Shown here: in pieces, positions 3,843 through 14,401 of the stretch | Numbering within the stretch: the first letter of the stretch is position 1 | Layout: each line of letters starts with the position of its first letter | Assembly (NCBI GenBank): GCA_947259355.1 | Contig: CAMYMF010000018.1 | Span: 1-40,525 of the forward strand | Direction: 5' to 3' | Origin: an uncultured Nitrospirota bacterium | Lineage (GTDB): Bacteria; CG2-30-53-67 | DNA: 40,525 bases | The notes under the pieces: generated by a model | Databases searched by the model: none | What the model was told of the DNA's origin: nothing | Seen by the model: the letters and a program-made list of their open reading frames with translations, nothing else | Made by a program: the position numbers and the translations under genes

Positions 3843-5213
3843 ATGGTGAAGCCGAAACTTCTGATTGTCGACGACGACGAGAGCATCCTCAAACAACTCC
3901 TATGGGCCTTCGACGATGACTACGCGGTCTTGCTTGCGCCCGACAAGGAGACAGCTCTGGCTTCGCTGCGCGAGCAACGGCCTGATCTGGTGGCCCTGGA
4001 TCTTGGTCTGTCCCCGCACATGGGAGGCGAGGCCGACGACGAAGGGATCGACATACTGGCGCAGGCATTGAAACAGGATCCTCTGGTAAAGACCATCATG
4101 ATCACCGGCAACGAGGACAAGGAGTACGCCATCAAGGCTATCAAGATGGGCGCTTACGACTATTACCTCAAGCCGGTGGACGTGGAGGAGCTCCGTCTCA
4201 TCATGAAACGGGCCCGGCGGATCCAGAATCTGGAACGAGAAAACGTCCGGCTCCAGGAGCAGATGCACGAGAGCAAGCGTTATGCGGGACTGGTCGGTTG
4301 GTCGCCCGCCATGCAGGCCGTCTACCAGCAGATCGAAGGGGTGGCCGACAGCGACGTCACCGTGCTCATCGAAGGGGAGAGCGGCACCGGCAAGGAGCTG
4401 GTAGCCAAGGCCATTCAGGAGAAGAGCGGGCGCGCCAAGGGTCCCTTTGTGATCATCAACTGCGGCGCCATTCCGGAGAACCTTCTGGAGTCGGAGCTTT
4501 TCGGCCACGAAAAGGGGGCCTTCACCGGCGCGACGGCCGGCAAGGCAGGCAAATTCGAACAGGCCGACGGGGGCACCCTCTTTCTCGATGAGATCGGCGA
4601 ATTGCCCTTGAGCCTGCAGGTGAAGCTGCTTCGCTTTCTGCAAGACCACCAGATCGAGCGGGTCGGAGGCAAGAGTCCGATCAAGCTCAATGTCCGGGTA
4701 CTGGCGGCCACGAACCGGGACCTGGAACAGGAAGTAGAGGCAGGGCGGTTCCGCAAAGACCTCTATTTCCGCCTGAACGTGGTCCGCATCGTCCTGCCCC
4801 TGCTGAAGGATCGCACGGGCGATGCCATGCTCCTGGCCCACTATTTTCTCGACTGCTACCGGGGGGAGAAAAAGAAGAAGATCTCGGGATTCTCGGCGGA
4901 AGCGGAGCTGGCGGTGAAAACGGCGGAATGGAAAGGCAATGTCCGGGAGCTGGAAAACCGGATCCGCAAGGCCCTGATAGTGACCCAGGGACCGCTGATC
5001 ACCGAGCACGATCTCGGGCTCGCCTATAACGAAGATGCTGTCCCGCTGCCGCTGAAGGAGGCCCGGGAACAGCTCGACCGCAAGTACATCATGCTTGCCC
5101 TGCGCGGCACCGGGGGCAATATCAGCAAGGCGGCCAAGGAACTCGGCATCAGCCGGGTTACGCTGCACGATCTGATCAAGAAATACGACATCACCGTCCC
5201 TTCCGGGGTCTGA
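3843..5213 (+). CDS. prsR: PEP-CTERM-box sigma54-dependent response regulator PrsR
   Basis: A 456-aa NtrC-class regulator. Residues 1-120 are a receiver domain with acidic D10-D12, phospho-acceptor D53, T88 and K110. Residues about 150-390 form the AAA+ sigma54-activation domain: Walker A GESGTGKE (178-185), the sigma54-contact loop GAFTGA (225-230), and Walker B GGTLFLDEIGEL. The C-terminus has a Fis-type helix-turn-helix (GNISKAAKELGISRVTLHDL). Start chosen at the ATG at 3843, behind GAGGA with 7-8 bases spacing, rather than the in-frame GTG at 3783. Length, an unusually loose receiver and the PEP-CTERM target just downstream fit the PrsR family, which turns on PEP-CTERM/exopolysaccharide genes with sigma54 RNA polymerase. 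Its usual partner kinase PrsK is not in the window. The probable target promoter is at 5427. Confidence 0.88.
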   Translation: MVKPKLLIVDDDESILKQLLWAFDDDYAVLLAPDKETALASLREQRPDLVALDLGLSPHMGGEADDEGIDILAQALKQDPLVKTIMITGNEDKEYAIKAIKMGAYDYYLKPVDVEELRLIMKRARRIQNLERENVRLQEQMHESKRYAGLVGWSPAMQAVYQQIEGVADSDVTVLIEGESGTGKELVAKAIQEKSGRAKGPFVIINCGAIPENLLESELFGHEKGAFTGATAGKAGKFEQADGGTLFLDEIGELPLSLQVKLLRFLQDHQIERVGGKSPIKLNVRVLAATNRDLEQEVEAGRFRKDLYFRLNVVRIVLPLLKDRTGDAMLLAHYFLDCYRGEKKKKISGFSAEAELAVKTAEWKGNVRELENRIRKALIVTQGPLITEHDLGLAYNEDAVPLPLKEAREQLDRKYIMLALRGTGGNISKAAKELGISRVTLHDLIKKYDITVPSGV

Positions 5214-5238: not shown

Positions 5239-5255
5239 TGTCGATTTCCTTTACA
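5239..5255 (+). promoter_or_regulatory. Upstream activator element, copy 1 (putative PrsR site)
   Basis: TGTCGATTTCCTTTACA. It matches the second copy at 5315-5331 at 13 of 17 positions (TGTCG-N3-TCC-Y-TTACA). It lies about 190 bp upstream of the -24 GG, within the range for enhancer-binding proteins. Confidence 0.55.
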
Positions 5256-5314
5256 CTGCTAACCTTTTAAATTCAAAGAACTTCTCCTCAAGACGCCGAT
5301 ATTTGTCAGGCGAA

Positions 5315-5331
5315 TGTCGGAATCCCTTACA
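5315..5331 (+). promoter_or_regulatory. Upstream activator element, copy 2 (putative PrsR site)
   Basis: TGTCGGAATCCCTTACA, 76 bp downstream of copy 1 and about 98 bp upstream of the -24 element. A related TGTCAGG lies 11 bp before it (5304). Conservation of both ends at fixed length suggests one protein-binding site used twice; assignment to PrsR is inference from position. Confidence 0.55.
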
Positions 5332-5426
5332 ACTTTACCGCCCCCATCGGCTCGGTCGTCTTCGAATTCCCACGGCATGAATTCAAAAAATGATTGAAAT
5401 TCTCCGGTTACGGAGTCCGGGAGAAG

Positions 5427-5443
5427 CTGGTATGCAATTTGCA
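5427..5443 (+). promoter_or_regulatory. Sigma54 (-24/-12) promoter of the PEP-CTERM gene
   Basis: CTGGTATGCAATTTGCA matches the sigma54 consensus YTGGCACGRNNNTTGCW: GG at 5429-5430 and GC at 5441-5442 with exactly 10 bp between. The transcript should start near 5454. With prsR directly upstream, this is very likely a PrsR-activated promoter. Confidence 0.85.
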
Positions 5444-5444
5444 G

Positions 5445-5521: not shown

Positions 5522-6073
5522 ATGCAAAAGAGAACCATTTTACTCATCTTATTCCTGTCTCTATTCTTAGCGGCATCGAATCTCTACGCCTACTCCTACT
5601 GCTACGAAGGCTGCTATGAGCCGCCCGAGGTGACAGCCAGCATGGAAATGACCGGCGGAGACGGCGGCGCGTTCACCGCCCAGTACGTGTTTTCGAATCT
5701 GCCGACCGACTACGGGGCCATGGCACTTCTTCTGGATTTCCAAAGCCCCTTCACGCCCGTTCTCAACAGCCAGACCCTGGGTTGGTACATGGGCACGGCA
5801 GACGGCAATCTGCTGCTCGCCACCAAGTCCGGTCTGCCGGTGACCCCCGGCCTGTTAAACTTTGACGTCAACGTCGATCTCTCCGACGGCGTTCAGTGGG
5901 ACTGGCACCAGAGCTTCCTCGGCGTCTACACAAAATGCCTGCGGATTGTGAAGTTCACCGGAACCATTGACAGACCGGGCTACCCGGTGGCGGAACCGGG
6001 CACCATGATCCTGCTCGGCATCAGCATGCTGACCCTCGCCGGCTACGGCAGACGGCAGATGATGAAGAGATAG
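5522..6073 (+). CDS. PEP-CTERM sorting-domain secreted protein
   Basis: 183 aa. Residues 1-23 are a Sec signal peptide (MQKRTILLILFLSLFLAAS, cleavage near LYA-Y). The mature part, rich in Gly, Thr and aromatic residues, has no recognised enzyme motif and has an early Cys/Tyr-rich patch (YCYEGCYE). The C-terminus is a classic tripartite PEP-CTERM signal: an AEPGT motif, a hydrophobic helix (MILLGISMLTLAGY) and an Arg/Lys tail (GRRQMMKR). The first Pro of the canonical VPEP is Ala here. Such proteins are exported and processed by an exosortase, and are linked to extracellular polysaccharide. The start has AAGGAG about 9 bases upstream. It follows the sigma54 promoter and the paired upstream elements, and is followed by an intrinsic terminator, so it is a single-gene transcript. 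Confidence 0.92.
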   Translation: MQKRTILLILFLSLFLAASNLYAYSYCYEGCYEPPEVTASMEMTGGDGGAFTAQYVFSNLPTDYGAMALLLDFQSPFTPVLNSQTLGWYMGTADGNLLLATKSGLPVTPGLLNFDVNVDLSDGVQWDWHQSFLGVYTKCLRIVKFTGTIDRPGYPVAEPGTMILLGISMLTLAGYGRRQMMKR

Positions 6074-6279: not shown

Positions 6280-8472
6280 CTACGAAAGCTCCGAGAGCGC
6301 CTGGAGCGCTTGGTTCCTGTAGATGAAGCTGCCGCCCTTTTCCAGGGCCGTCTCCAGATGCCCCCTGGCCTCTTCATTCTCTCCCAGGGCCTTCAGGACC
6401 ATGCCGAGGTGAAAGTGGATGATCGGCTCACCAGGATTCAGGGCCAGCGCCCGCTCCAGCGTCCCCCGGGCCTCGCGGTGATCCCCCATGAGGTGTTGGA
6501 TCCACCCGAGGGTGTCCTGAAAGCCGGGATCGTTCGGTGAAACGGCCGTCGCTTTCTCGGCCAGCCGCCTCGCCTTCGGCAGGAAGACCCCCTTTTCCGC
6601 GTAGATCCAGGCCAGATTGTTCATGGCGGCGCTGTTGTCGGGCCGCACGGTGAGGAGTTTCTCGTACTGCGCCACGGCCCCGTCGATGTTTCCCGTCGAC
6701 ATATAGAGCTCGGCCAGGGGGAGCATGGCCTGGTAGAGATTCTTCTCCTTGGCGAGGGCCTTCTCGTACTCAGCAATGGCCCGGGCCGACTCCTTCTCCT
6801 GGATATGAAGCTTTGCCAGAACGAGGTGGGGCAGCGCGCTGGCCGGCATCGCGTCAATCGCCGCCGTAAGGCTCTGCCGAGCCTCGGCTTTCCGGTTCAT
6901 TTCGAGGAGCACCCGTGCCTTGCTCAAATAGGGAGCCAGATAATCGGCCCGAACCGCGATGACCTTGTCCCACTGGGCAATGGCCGCCAACGGCTCTTTC
7001 GCCCGCGCATGGGCCGATCCGAGCAGCGTGAGCAGCATGGGATCGTCGGGCCATTTCTTGAGGGCCGCCCGTGTTTCGGCTTTCGCCCCCCCGATGTTGC
7101 CTTGAAGAAGGTGGCTCATGATCAGCCGGACGCGAGCGCCCGGCTGCTCCGGGTCGAGTTGAATCGTTGACTCAAACTCCTCGATGGCCCGTGCGAGATT
7201 GCCTGCGGCACCGTAGTAGACCCCCAGATTTTCGCGAGCCTCCGCTGAGTCTGAGTCCAGAGCCAGGGCTCTTTCAAAAGTCACGATGGCGTCATCGAGC
7301 CGTTCCATCTTCAGATAGGCCGAGCCGAGCAGATTCAAAGGGAGGGGGTTCTGCGGATCGCTTTCAACGGCGGCCTGGAAGGATTTGATGGCATCGTCCC
7401 GGTAACCGAGGGCAAAGGCGCTGGCGCCCGCCAGCAGGTTGGCGCCGGTATGACCGGGGGCCTTGGCCAGCGCATCGTGGGCCATGGTGATGGCCTGCTG
7501 GTAATGCCCTGAAAAATAATGGACCTGGCTGAGCAGATAGTAGGGGATGGCCGACTCGGGGTTTTCCCGGGTCACCAGAATCAGCTCTTTTTCAGCCAGA
7601 TCGTATTTCTTGAGACCGAGATAGGCCGCCCCCTTCAACAGATGGGAGTGCACCGCGTTCGGCTCCAGCTCCTGGGCCCGATCGCCGGCAGCAATGGCGG
7701 CGTCGAATCGGCTCTGATTGATGTAGAGCTCGCCGAGTTTCAGGTGCGCTGCGACCAAATCGGGCTTCTGCGCCAGCGCTCCCTGCACCTCCTCGACGGC
7801 ATCGTCCAGTTTCCCCTGCAGGGTGTAGACCTCGGACCGTGCCAGATAGGGTTTGACATCCTTCGAATCAAGCTCCCCCGCCTTGTTCAAGGCGAGCAAG
7901 GCCTTGTCGAACTGCTCCTGAAAGATAAAGATCGTTCCCACCGTCATCCAGGCCGGCTGGAAATCCTTGTCTAGGCGGAGCGCTTCCTGGGACAGAGAAA
8001 GTGCCAATGTGAGATTGTTCCTGCCGGCGTGCACGTTCGCGAGGACATAAAGGACCCTCGGATCGTCGGACCGGACCGCCCGGCATTTCTGTGCGCTCTG
8101 CTCCGCGGCGTCCAGGTCCCCCAGTTGGAGTGCCGCTTCCGCCGTCTCGAGATGGAGCGCGTAGCTGTCGAGCCCCATCTCCGCAGCCTTCCTGTAGTTG
8201 CTCAGGGCTGTTTGATACTGCTCTTTGAGGGCATGGGCGCGCCCCAGAAGGAAATGGGCTTCCCCCGCATCGGGAGTGAGCTTCACCAGATTGCTAAACT
8301 CCACCACGGCGCCCTGTCCGTTTCCCTCCTCGAGATAGGCGAGCCCCCGTTGCTGGTGGCGGGCGATCTTCGCCTCCCGGCTCTCACAGCCCAGAAGGCT
8401 CACGAGAAACAGGAGGATCACGTATGCCGTCCATCTTTTGAGGGAGAGCTTGACCGGAGTACTCACTTTCAT
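6280..8472 (-). CDS. prsT: PEP-CTERM system TPR-repeat lipoprotein PrsT
   Basis: 730 aa. An N-terminal lipoprotein signal ends in the lipobox SLLGC (Cys29). The rest is a long array of tetratricopeptide repeats, recognisable by repeating A-x-x-x-L-G/A-x-x-Y...A...Y...P patterns such as AWIYAEKG, LGTSHARA-like turns and LNLLGSAYLKMERLDDAI. Length is somewhat below the roughly 900 aa typical of PrsT, as if a few repeats are missing. PrsT proteins are outer-membrane or periplasmic scaffolds conserved in exosortase/PEP-CTERM exopolysaccharide loci. The start was set at the ATG at 8472, nine bases after GGAGG (8486-8482), because the in-frame TTG at 8478 is too close to it. Convergent with the PEP-CTERM gene. 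A promoter lies at 8519-8547. Confidence 0.85.
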   Translation of the reverse strand: MKVSTPVKLSLKRWTAYVILLFLVSLLGCESREAKIARHQQRGLAYLEEGNGQGAVVEFSNLVKLTPDAGEAHFLLGRAHALKEQYQTALSNYRKAAEMGLDSYALHLETAEAALQLGDLDAAEQSAQKCRAVRSDDPRVLYVLANVHAGRNNLTLALSLSQEALRLDKDFQPAWMTVGTIFIFQEQFDKALLALNKAGELDSKDVKPYLARSEVYTLQGKLDDAVEEVQGALAQKPDLVAAHLKLGELYINQSRFDAAIAAGDRAQELEPNAVHSHLLKGAAYLGLKKYDLAEKELILVTRENPESAIPYYLLSQVHYFSGHYQQAITMAHDALAKAPGHTGANLLAGASAFALGYRDDAIKSFQAAVESDPQNPLPLNLLGSAYLKMERLDDAIVTFERALALDSDSAEARENLGVYYGAAGNLARAIEEFESTIQLDPEQPGARVRLIMSHLLQGNIGGAKAETRAALKKWPDDPMLLTLLGSAHARAKEPLAAIAQWDKVIAVRADYLAPYLSKARVLLEMNRKAEARQSLTAAIDAMPASALPHLVLAKLHIQEKESARAIAEYEKALAKEKNLYQAMLPLAELYMSTGNIDGAVAQYEKLLTVRPDNSAAMNNLAWIYAEKGVFLPKARRLAEKATAVSPNDPGFQDTLGWIQHLMGDHREARGTLERALALNPGEPIIHFHLGMVLKALGENEEARGHLETALEKGGSFIYRNQALQALSELS

Positions 8473-8514
8473 TGGCAATAGCCTCCATGCACAACCGTGG
8501 GTAACAAATCAACA

Positions 8515-10543: not shown

Positions 10544-10692
10544 TTCCGACAGTTTTGCTGGGAACGGCGAGTCTGCGGCGCGCAGGAGGCATGTTGCGCC
10601 ATCGTTTTAGACCGCAGGACGGGCGCCAAGCAAAAAGGAGCCCGATGCCCGGCCCACCGAGCACGTCCGGTCGTTGTTCAACGGAGCATCTG

Positions 10693-12915
10693 ATGCAGGG
10701 ACCCGAGCCTCAAACGGCTGAGATGAGAGCGGCCTTTCGCTGGCAGCAGAAGGTTCTGGTGCTGCTGGGAATTCTCGTGCTCAGCGGTCTCATCTGGTTT
10801 TTCTGGAATGCCGTCCAGAGCTCCGGGGAGATCCGCTTTCCCGTCTCCGACTACGTGCTGCTCTTCTCCCTGGCGGTCATCATCGCCATCCTCTCGCTGG
10901 CGCTGATCCTGCTGGTGTTTCGCAACCTGATCAAGTACTACTTCGAGGGCCGCAAGAGCCCGCCGCGCGCGCGGATCAAGACCAAGCTGATCATCGCCTT
11001 CATCAGCTTTTCCCTGATTCCATCGATTCTGCTCTTCACCATTGCCAGCTTTCTCATCACCTCCAGCATTGACAACTGGTTCAACGAACGGGTCGATGAC
11101 TCGCTGAGGGAATCGCTCGATGTGGCCCGGGTCTATTACGAGAACTCCGAGCGCAATGCCATCTACTACGGCCGCCAGATCAGTGAACAGATCACCCAGC
11201 GCAAGCTCCTCAATGAGAAGAATCTGGCCCGCCTCCGGGAGCTGATCCAACAGAAGCAGAGAGAGTACAACCTGGGTGTGGTGGAGGTCTTCTCGGCCAC
11301 CCACGAAGAGCTGGTCAAGGCGATGAATCCCGAGGTGCCGTCGACCACTTTCGTGGGGCCGCGGGCGGAGATCATCGAGCTCGCCCTCAACGGCAGCGAG
11401 CACACGGAGAGCGAGCCTATGGGGGAGGGCGACATCATCCGGGGCGCCGTGCCGGTGCTCTCGTCCTGGAACCGTAAGGACGTGGTCGGGGTGATCGTCG
11501 TCAATTACTACGTCCAGAAGAGCCTGGCCACCAAGATGATGAACATTACCCGCGCCTTCAACGAATACCGGGAGCAGGCCATGCTGCAGAACCCCATCAA
11601 GGGGATCTACATCATGTTTCTCTTTCTGGTGACCCTGGTCATCGCCTTTTCCGCGACCTGGGTGGGGCTCTACCAGGCGCGCAAGATCACCATCCCCATT
11701 CAGGACCTGACGGAGGCAACGCACCGCATCGCCGAGGGAGACCTGGATTTCGTCATCGATGTGGAGTCCAAAGACGAAGTGGGACTCCTGGTGGACTCCT
11801 TCAACCGGATGATGAGCGACCTGAAATCGAGCAAGGAGAACCTGGAGCGGACCAACATCGAACTGAAGGTTTCCAACGAAGAGCTCGACCGGCGGCGAAG
11901 CTACATCGAAACCATTCTGCAGAACATCGACACCGGCGTCATCTCCATTGACTGGGAGGGGCGCATCACCACCATCAACCAGGCCGCGGAAGGGATGCTG
12001 GGGGTCCGGATCGTGGAGGCCCGCGGCAAGGACTACCGCGACCTGCTGACCTTCCCGAAGTTGCTGGAGAGCATCAAGACCGTCACCACCGGTCTGCAGA
12101 AGAGCTTCGGCCGCGAACTGCAAATCGCCACCGATGAGAAGACCCTCTTTCTCAAGAGCCACGTGTCCGCTCTGGAGGACGATCGGGGCAATTACCTGGG
12201 CGCGGTGGTGGTGCTGGACGACTTCACCGATCTGATGCGGGCGCAGAAGGTGGCGGCATGGCGGGAAGTGGCCCGCCGTATCGCCCATGAAATCAAGAAT
12301 CCCCTGACGCCGATCCAGCTCTCCGCGCAGCGCCTGCGCCGCAAACAGGAGAAGAGCTCACCCGATCTGGATGGGGTCATCCAGGAGTGCACTTCGACGA
12401 TCATCAATGAGGTGGACGGCCTCAAGAAGCTCGTCAATGAGTTCTCCCAATTCGCCAAGATGCCCGACGCGCAACCATCCCCCAACGACCTGCACGAGAT
12501 CATCACCGAAGTCTGCACCCTCTACGACGTGCACAAGAAGGTGAGCATCGTCCGGGAGCTGGATGAAGAACTGCCGACCCTCAATGTCGATCGGGAACAG
12601 GTCCGGCGGGCCCTCATCAACCTGCTGGAGAATGCCGTGGAGGCCATGGAAGGGGAGGGGCGGGTCTGGGTCCGGACCGACTACAACCGCCAACTCCAGA
12701 TGGTGACCATCGAAGTACGGGACGAGGGCGCCGGTATCCGTCCGGAGGATCGGGACAAGCTGTTTCTGCCATACTTCTCGCGGAAGAAGTCGGGCACCGG
12801 TCTCGGTCTGGCCATCGTGGATCGGATCGTCAAGGACCACGGCGGTTACATTCGGGTCAAGGACAACACCCCCCGGGGAACGATGTTTGTCATCGAGCTC
12901 CCGGCAGCGGCTTAG
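10693..12915 (+). CDS. ntrY: NtrY-like membrane sensor histidine kinase
   Basis: 740 aa. Three membrane segments near the N-terminus (about 20-38, 53-77, 98-122), an extracytoplasmic region to about 300, and a fourth membrane helix (IYIMFLFLVTLVIAF). Then a HAMP linker (ARKITIPIQDLTEATHRIAEG), a PAS domain, a HisKA phospho-acceptor H532 in RRIAHEIKNPLTPIQLSAQR, and an HATPase domain with N (LLENAVEAM), G1 (DEGAGI) and G2 (GTGLGLAI) boxes. This order matches NtrY, which senses nitrogen or redox-related cues and phosphorylates NtrX. The start is the ATG at 10693 with GGAG seven bases upstream; the longer frame lacks a site. The regulator gene follows after 124 bases. The signal sensed is not deducible. 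Confidence 0.88.
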   Translation: MQGPEPQTAEMRAAFRWQQKVLVLLGILVLSGLIWFFWNAVQSSGEIRFPVSDYVLLFSLAVIIAILSLALILLVFRNLIKYYFEGRKSPPRARIKTKLIIAFISFSLIPSILLFTIASFLITSSIDNWFNERVDDSLRESLDVARVYYENSERNAIYYGRQISEQITQRKLLNEKNLARLRELIQQKQREYNLGVVEVFSATHEELVKAMNPEVPSTTFVGPRAEIIELALNGSEHTESEPMGEGDIIRGAVPVLSSWNRKDVVGVIVVNYYVQKSLATKMMNITRAFNEYREQAMLQNPIKGIYIMFLFLVTLVIAFSATWVGLYQARKITIPIQDLTEATHRIAEGDLDFVIDVESKDEVGLLVDSFNRMMSDLKSSKENLERTNIELKVSNEELDRRRSYIETILQNIDTGVISIDWEGRITTINQAAEGMLGVRIVEARGKDYRDLLTFPKLLESIKTVTTGLQKSFGRELQIATDEKTLFLKSHVSALEDDRGNYLGAVVVLDDFTDLMRAQKVAAWREVARRIAHEIKNPLTPIQLSAQRLRRKQEKSSPDLDGVIQECTSTIINEVDGLKKLVNEFSQFAKMPDAQPSPNDLHEIITEVCTLYDVHKKVSIVRELDEELPTLNVDREQVRRALINLLENAVEAMEGEGRVWVRTDYNRQLQMVTIEVRDEGAGIRPEDRDKLFLPYFSRKKSGTGLGLAIVDRIVKDHGGYIRVKDNTPRGTMFVIELPAAA

Positions 12916-13039
12916 CCCTTCGATTCACATGTTCGATTACGAATTTGATTTTACCATAGAAAATACTTCACTATCTGTACGGATCGAAGCACTTTGTGGT
13001 CCTGTTCAGAAACATGGTCACCGACCCTGAAGGAGCGTC

Positions 13040-14401
13040 ATGCCCACGGCCCGCATACTCGTCGTCGATGACGAAACGGTCATCCTCAAGACCCTGTCCG
13101 ATGTCCTCCAGGACGAGGGGTTTGAAGTCGTCACCGCTGAATCGGGGGAGGAGGCCCTGCGGGTCTTTCCCGACGTGGCACCCGATGTAACCCTGCTCGA
13201 CGTCTGGCTCTCCGGCATGGACGGCATCGAGGTGCTCAAGAAGATCCGGGAGCAGGTACCCGACGGAGCGGTGATCATGATGTCAGGACACGGCAGCATC
13301 GAAACCGCGGTGCAGGCAACCAAACATGGGGCCTACGATTTCATCGAGAAACCGCTTTCCGTAGACAAGCTGGCCATCTCGATTCAGAACGCTTTGGAGA
13401 AGAGCCGGCTGGAAGCGGAGAACAGAACGCTGCGCAGCAAGCTCGTCGAAAGCTACGAAATCGTGGGGGAGACCCCGGTCATCCGGGATCTCAAGGAGCA
13501 GATCAAGATTGCCGGACCCAGCAACGGTCGCGTCCTCATCTTCGGCGAGAACGGCACCGGCAAGGAGCTGATCGCACACCAGATTCATCTGCACAGCGAC
13601 CGGGCAGACGGGACCTTCGTGGAGGTCAACTGCGCCGCCATTCCCCAGGATCTGATCGAATCGGAACTCTTCGGTCACGAAAAGGGCTCCTTTACCGGGG
13701 CCACGACCCTGCGCAAGGGCAAATTCGAACTGGCCGATCGAGGGACGATCTTTCTGGACGAGATCGGCGACATGAGCCTGGCCACCCAGGCCAAAGTGTT
13801 GCGGGCCCTGCAAGAGCAGATCGTGCAACGGGTGGGCGGCACACGCAACATCTCGGTGGATGTGCGGGTCATCGCGGCCAGCAACAAAGATCTGGAACAG
13901 GAGATCCAGAACGGCAATTTCCGGGAGGATCTCTTCTACCGCCTCAACGTGATCCCTATCGTGGTGCCACCCCTGCGGGAGCGCCGCGAGGATATCCCCG
14001 TGCTGGTGCGGCACTTCATCGGGGAGTACGCGCGCGCCAACGGCATGAAGCCCAAGACCATCCTGCCGGAGGCCATGCAGATCCTCATGCACTACCACTG
14101 GCCCGGGAATGTGCGGGAACTGCGCAACATCGTTGAGCGGATGATGATTATGGTGCGCAAGGAGAGCATCGGAACGGATGAGATCCCACCGGCCATCCGG
14201 GGCGAGCCGGCCCGGGCCAGACTCACCAGCTATGCGGGAAGTCTGCGGGAAGCCCGGCAGGCCTTTGAGGGCGATTACATTCTTCAGAAGCTGAAGGAAA
14301 ACGACTGGAATGTCTCACAGACAGCGAAGATTCTGAAGATCGAACGGAGTAATCTGCACCGAAAGATCAAGCATCTGGGGCTCGACGCCCGGAAGAACTA
14401 A
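13040..14401 (+). CDS. ntrX: NtrX-like sigma54-dependent response regulator
   Basis: 453 aa. Receiver domain with D10-D11, phospho-acceptor D54 and K104; AAA+ domain with Walker A GENGTGKE (169-176) and Walker [12 protein letters not shown]-terminal Fis-type helix-turn-helix ([20 protein letters not shown]). The sigma54-contact loop reads GSFTGA (216-221) rather than GAFTGA, a conservative change; compare GAFTGA in PrsR in this window. The start has AGGAG about 6 bases upstream. Together with NtrY it forms a two-component pair acting on sigma54 promoters. Genes controlled are unknown. It converges with the flavoprotein gene; a palindrome GGGGCGCCCC (14403-14412) lies just after its stop codon. 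Confidence 0.9.

Follow-up and report, generated by a model that had tools for sequence, protein, structure and literature searches.

The stretch of DNA analysed here (the window, 40,525 nucleotides) is one contig (C18) of a 3.1-Mb draft genome of 94 contigs (G000) from an uncultured Nitrospirota bacterium, and it raises the question of what two similar 17-bp elements are doing between prsR and a PEP-CTERM gene. The original prediction was that these elements form the enhancer pair of a sigma-54 promoter and are bound by PrsR. Both 17-mers were found where they had been reported (Table 1), identical at 13/17 positions and 76 bp apart from start to start, with box 1 ending in TTTACA and box 2 in CTTACA. 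The promoter, with its GG at 5429-5430 and GC at 5441-5442, follows at 189 bp from the start of box 1 and 113 bp from the start of box 2. The gene assignments also held, as prsR directly upstream scores 553.5 bits against TIGR02915 (NCBI cut-off 502.6) and the tail of the downstream PEP-CTERM gene lies at the TIGR02595 cut-off of 16, scoring 15.4 bits, or 16.1 with frame neighbours. Apart from PrsR, region 10555-14401 of the window encodes a further sensor kinase with an NtrC/NtrX-like sigma-54 response regulator.

Table 1. Coordinates of the box elements, promoters, genes and candidate RNA (window positions unless a genome and contig are given).
Feature	Location	Strand	Description
Box 1, distal enhancer element	5239-5255	+	TGTCGATTTCCTTTACA; counterpart in G001 is TGTCGATTTCCCTTACA
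Box 2, proximal enhancer element	5315-5331	+	TGTCGGAATCCCTTACA; counterpart in G001 is TGTCGGAATTCTTTACA
Sigma-54 -24/-12 promoter	5428-5444	+	TGGTATGCAATTTGCAG; TGGTATG and TTTGCAG retained in G001
IHF-like element, 4 bp past box 1	5260-5272	-	TAACCTTTTAAAT; 2 mismatches to YAANNNNTTGATW, better at other loci
PEP-CTERM gene, putative target, 183 aa	5522-6073	+	C-terminus VAEPGTMILLGISMLTLAGYGRRQMMKR; TIGR02595
prsR	3843-5213	+	Receiver, sigma-54 activator AAA+ and Fis-type HTH; candidate box-binding activator
prsT-like TPR protein, XrtA/PEP-CTERM system	6280-8478	-	Convergent neighbour; TIGR02917 359 bits, cut-off 312.2
C27 box pair and sigma-54 promoter	G000:C27, boxes 5770-5862	-	Before operon of PAS/HisKA_3 kinase and LuxR-type response regulator
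Candidate RNA, ~127 nt	G000:C56:10381-10508; G001:C79:7250-7376	- in both	Conserved segment immediately past box-controlled sigma-54 promoter
Boxless PEP-CTERM genes, G000	C59, C8, C10 (48624), C4, C58 (two), C36, C31		GSG-type tails

Taken alone, the window pair is weak evidence and has no significance by itself. Among 300 dinucleotide-shuffled versions of the 308-bp intergenic stretch, 26% contain at least one pair agreeing at 13/17 positions; therefore the window observation has to be judged by other loci. The genome scan near -24/-12 promoters that had been proposed as a check revealed five loci at which two boxes are spaced 76-77 bp and a strong promoter lies 90-113 bp past the start of box 2 (C18, which is the window, C44, C27, C56, and C10), three of them before PEP-CTERM genes and two before other genes. 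The genome-wide statistics come from pattern searches, and the inter-box spacing was left unspecified in this one and measured afterwards. All four genomic matches with zero or one mismatch lie at box/sigma-54 promoters. At up to two mismatches the excess is modest, with 32 matches vs 19 for a reversed-pattern control, and the two-mismatch matches in this genome were set aside as mostly noise. Degenerate second boxes are common (e.g., TGTAGGAGTTCCTTATA, TGTAGGATATCTTTATA, TGTTAATAATTCTGACA). In the window, box 2 ends 96 bp before the promoter, the longest such gap of the five; the spacer is 73-82 bp at the four other loci and reaches up to 110 bp in G002, a genome of another genus.

The layout is also conserved in related genomes. 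The genus is represented by one other genome, G001, whose PrsR is 94% identical. There, all five loci have counterparts that keep the boxes and promoter, while most of the sequence around them has diverged, and a search for the pair pattern gave five matches in each of the two congeneric genomes and none in the controls. The window pair is solid because the same layout recurs at five loci here and in all five of these counterparts, and this recurrence supports the predicted enhancer-pair organization. Two PEP-CTERM genes of G002 carry two-box and three-box arrays with 78-bp steps, and two genomes of a third genus (G004 and G005) hold one pair each at 76 bp. This gives 15 pairs in five genomes with a spacing of 76-78 bp, corresponding to about seven or eight loci without obvious orthology. 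The host lineage lies outside the Proteobacteria, its nearest named relative being a MAG labelled Nitrospirae/CG2-30-53-67. Matches at 72-76 bp on contig C125 of the related genome G003 were rejected as false boxes, as from G003:C125:15049 onward they belong to a CRISPR array in which the start of the repeat (GTCGCAATCCTTTATT) mimics a box at 72-76 bp spacing.

Beyond this lineage, a prsR-bearing plasmid of Vibrio alfacsensis has a single box, TGTCGATATATTTTACA, 72 bp before the sigma-54 promoter of a PEP-CTERM gene. The idea that boxes are generally paired in Proteobacteria was rejected: with a strict pattern, 399 genomes from one betaproteobacterial order (placed there by their RpoC and UbiD sequences and taken whether or not they encode PrsR) gave 7 pairs vs 9 in controls and thus no excess. 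One of these seven pairs (L199, G099:C17:34713-34804) is plausibly real: its boxes, spaced 75 bp, come immediately after a PEP-CTERM gene and are accompanied by a -24/-12 element, and the interval from box 2 to this promoter contains a perfect IHF consensus. Box pairs were absent from two Zixibacteria genomes, two Vibrionaceae plasmid records, and two further genomes. The two Zixibacteria MAGs (L070 and L071), which also lie outside the Proteobacteria, encode PrsR orthologues that pass the TIGR02915 cut-off.

IHF is a standard partner of sigma-54 promoters, and the genes for its alpha and beta subunits are present in the genome with scores above the NCBI cut-offs. In all 14 tabulated pairs, box 1 is followed after exactly 4 bp by TAA; the spacer's best IHF-like match sits at this offset on the minus strand at most loci. 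At most one mismatch to the IHF consensus is found in 7/14 box-box spacers (shuffle mean 1.5), three of the 14 being perfect vs 0.08 in shuffles, although these and the following counts overstate independence because orthologous copies are included. Between box 2 and the promoter, 11/13 intervals, including the G001 counterpart of the window, hold a forward match with at most one mismatch (shuffle mean 1.6), and six of the 13 hold a perfect consensus vs 0.09 in shuffles, with the site mostly at 54-56 or 66-68 bp past box 2. The window's own promoter has degenerate IHF matches only, the best with two mismatches. The one paper found to name sigma-54, IHF, and PEP-CTERM together offered no support.

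Several explanations other than a PrsR-bound, IHF-bent enhancer pair may be weighed against these data. That the window 17-mers resemble each other by chance is very improbable; shuffled intergenic sequences do contain pairs at least as alike at the frequency given above, but five loci share the boxes, spacing, and promoter, G001 retains them, and they reappear in G002, G004, and G005. A chance pair is thus refuted by conservation, even though the pair alone lacks significance. The fixed element 4 bp past box 1 could instead be part of a longer sequence recognized by PrsR or another factor, or be a site for HU, and this would explain the 76-78 bp spacing. The constant TAA at this offset despite poor IHF matches (2-3 mismatches) at several loci, including the window, would fit such a reading, as would the single-box promoters, which have no obvious element at +4. 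However, the near-promoter IHF matches, six of them perfect, are independent and lie away from the boxes, and both IHF subunits are encoded, leaving the longer recognition sequence a doubtful alternative to IHF.

The identity of the activator is a separate matter, as the boxes could be sigma-54 enhancers for a different NtrC-family protein, with prsR adjacent by chance. The genome offers many candidates, with 17 NtrC-family matches at E <= 1e-100, and boxes lie beside prsR at no locus other than the window and its counterpart in G001. In the G002 assembly, which is 95% complete, no PrsR orthologue was detected, yet there are two box promoters, and the EBP nearest to PrsR shares 44% identity and differs in its recognition helix. 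Set against this are the match in phylogenetic profile between the box motif and PrsR across 13 proteobacterial species in the accessible part of an earlier study (Haft et al., 2006; PMC1569441), the single weak box and absence of pairs among the 28 PEP-CTERM genes of G003, which is without PrsR, and the comparable box that precedes a PEP-CTERM gene on the prsR-bearing Vibrio plasmid. The main doubt about PrsR as ligand is therefore G002, with its boxes and no detected PrsR, vs the 2006 profile match. On balance we consider a different activator unlikely, and the boxes are probably an enhancer pair for an NtrC-type activator, with PrsR the most likely one, which would activate sigma-54 transcription from IHF-bent DNA. 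PrsR, PrsK, and PrsT all occur in this one genome, PrsR and PrsT in the window and PrsK on contig C19 (436.8 bits, cut-off 300).

If PrsR is indeed the activator, it would first be phosphorylated, with the signal presumably arriving through PrsK, which is encoded on another contig. PrsR dimers would then occupy the two 17-bp imperfect dyads, which lie 76 bp apart, and at most loci IHF would bind once inside the box-box spacer and once more shortly before the promoter. The resulting bends may bring the bound boxes to meet each other and the sigma-54 RNA polymerase at -24/-12, where the AAA+ domain of PrsR would drive open-complex formation. The predicted outcome is a small regulon comprising a PEP-CTERM subclass, a two-component operon, and a structured RNA.

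It had also been suggested that the box could list the whole exosortase-substrate regulon of this organism, and this part of the original prediction failed. Sequences preceding 124 PEP-CTERM genes from eight related genomes of the phylum were scanned at a threshold that shuffles did not reach; a box with a promoter precedes 13 of them, vs 0 in ten shuffle rounds, and several of these 13 genes lie outside the window's family and have weak single boxes. In the source genome the figure is 3/11, and two of its five box promoters (C27 and C56) serve genes other than PEP-CTERM genes. The tail pattern PE[PS]xT..[LF][GA][IV][SA]...Y, although defined post hoc, occurs in 9/13 box-bearing genes vs 1/111 others (Fisher p 5e-10). 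All eight boxless PEP-CTERM genes of the source genome have GSG-type C-termini, which are absent from the three with a box. Judged by their predicted tails, the box-bearing genes form a distinct C-terminal subclass, and with only 3/11 PEP-CTERM genes boxed the box is therefore no list of the whole exosortase regulon. The source genome yielded a single EpsH-type exosortase.

Next after the two-component operon at the C27 promoter comes a gene whose product probably has a signal peptide and belongs to no Pfam family. The C56 promoter leads into a segment of ~127 nt from the predicted transcription start (near GTGAATACTGACAATAGGG) that is 94% identical between G000 and G001, whereas its flanks are 54-61% identical. 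The segment ends in a strong GC hairpin and a short T run resembling a terminator, upstream of a gene for a THEP1-type NTPase, and its predicted fold energy is only mildly low (z -1.75). Rfam searches of the region found no family at gathering score, the sole match being His_leader on the opposite strand at a sub-threshold 36.4 bits (gathering 49). The segment looks like a candidate sigma-54-dependent small or leader RNA. If true, it would to our knowledge be the first RNA assigned to an exosortase regulon. We tentatively propose, at somewhat less than even confidence, that this candidate phylum has a compact PrsR regulon defined by a fixed box-IHF-box-IHF-promoter unit, with boxes 76-78 bp apart and folded by IHF, and that this regulon may hold a distinct subclass of PEP-CTERM signals, another two-component system, and a small or leader RNA that depends on sigma-54.

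Much of this arrangement has a precedent. In the accessible text of Haft et al., a 17-nt "motif 1," occasionally repeated, and a sigma-54 "motif 2" are described with PrsR as the proposed ligand (Haft et al., 2006; PMC1569441). The likeness is close, with a 17-nt box ending in TTTACA/TTACA, sometimes repeated, before the sigma-54 promoter of a PEP-CTERM gene, and the members of that system checked here, namely the TTTACA-type 3' end, the -24/-12 element, the PEP-CTERM gene (in the window), and PrsR/PrsK/PrsT, are all present. As far as that text goes, the earlier set was seen in Proteobacteria only, which is no defining trait, and covered 99/167 PEP-CTERM genes, whereas ours is from a non-proteobacterial candidate lineage and covers 3/11; its spacer of 32-92 nt, a described range and no strict definition, compares with 73-110 bp here, the window at 96 bp falling outside it; and it states no inter-box spacing or IHF site, whereas here pairs lie at 76-78 bp with IHF-like sites. 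For pepA of Aquincola tertiaricarbonis, beside prsT, RpoN dependence has been measured and a -24/-12 promoter and predicted upstream enhancer reported, with no box pair, IHF, or experimental demonstration of a PrsR role described in the available part of that work (PMC9850573). The finding is thus a rediscovery in a new lineage, because the box, its repetition, the sigma-54 motif, and the PrsR hypothesis were known from 2006 and RpoN dependence from Aquincola, judging by the accessible parts of both sources. The fixed pair spacing, IHF positions, substrate subclass, and RNA do not appear in the accessible passages of these two papers on PrsR and enhancers, Figure 5 of Haft et al. (2006) excepted.

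What these data add is an extension of the PrsR-box system outside the Proteobacteria and a geometric rule that finds box promoters with few false positives (0 in controls, six genomes of the order). The rule would separate PrsR-controlled exosortase substrates from the uncontrolled majority and suggests that the controlled set uses a different flavour of sorting signal and includes a regulatory RNA. In NtrC- and NifA-type systems, where looping is assisted by IHF, activators with a Fis-type HTH bind dyad enhancers ~100-200 bp upstream, with an IHF site between enhancer and promoter. The promoters described here differ in having boxes 76-78 bp apart and an extra IHF-like site between them, at a fixed 4 bp.
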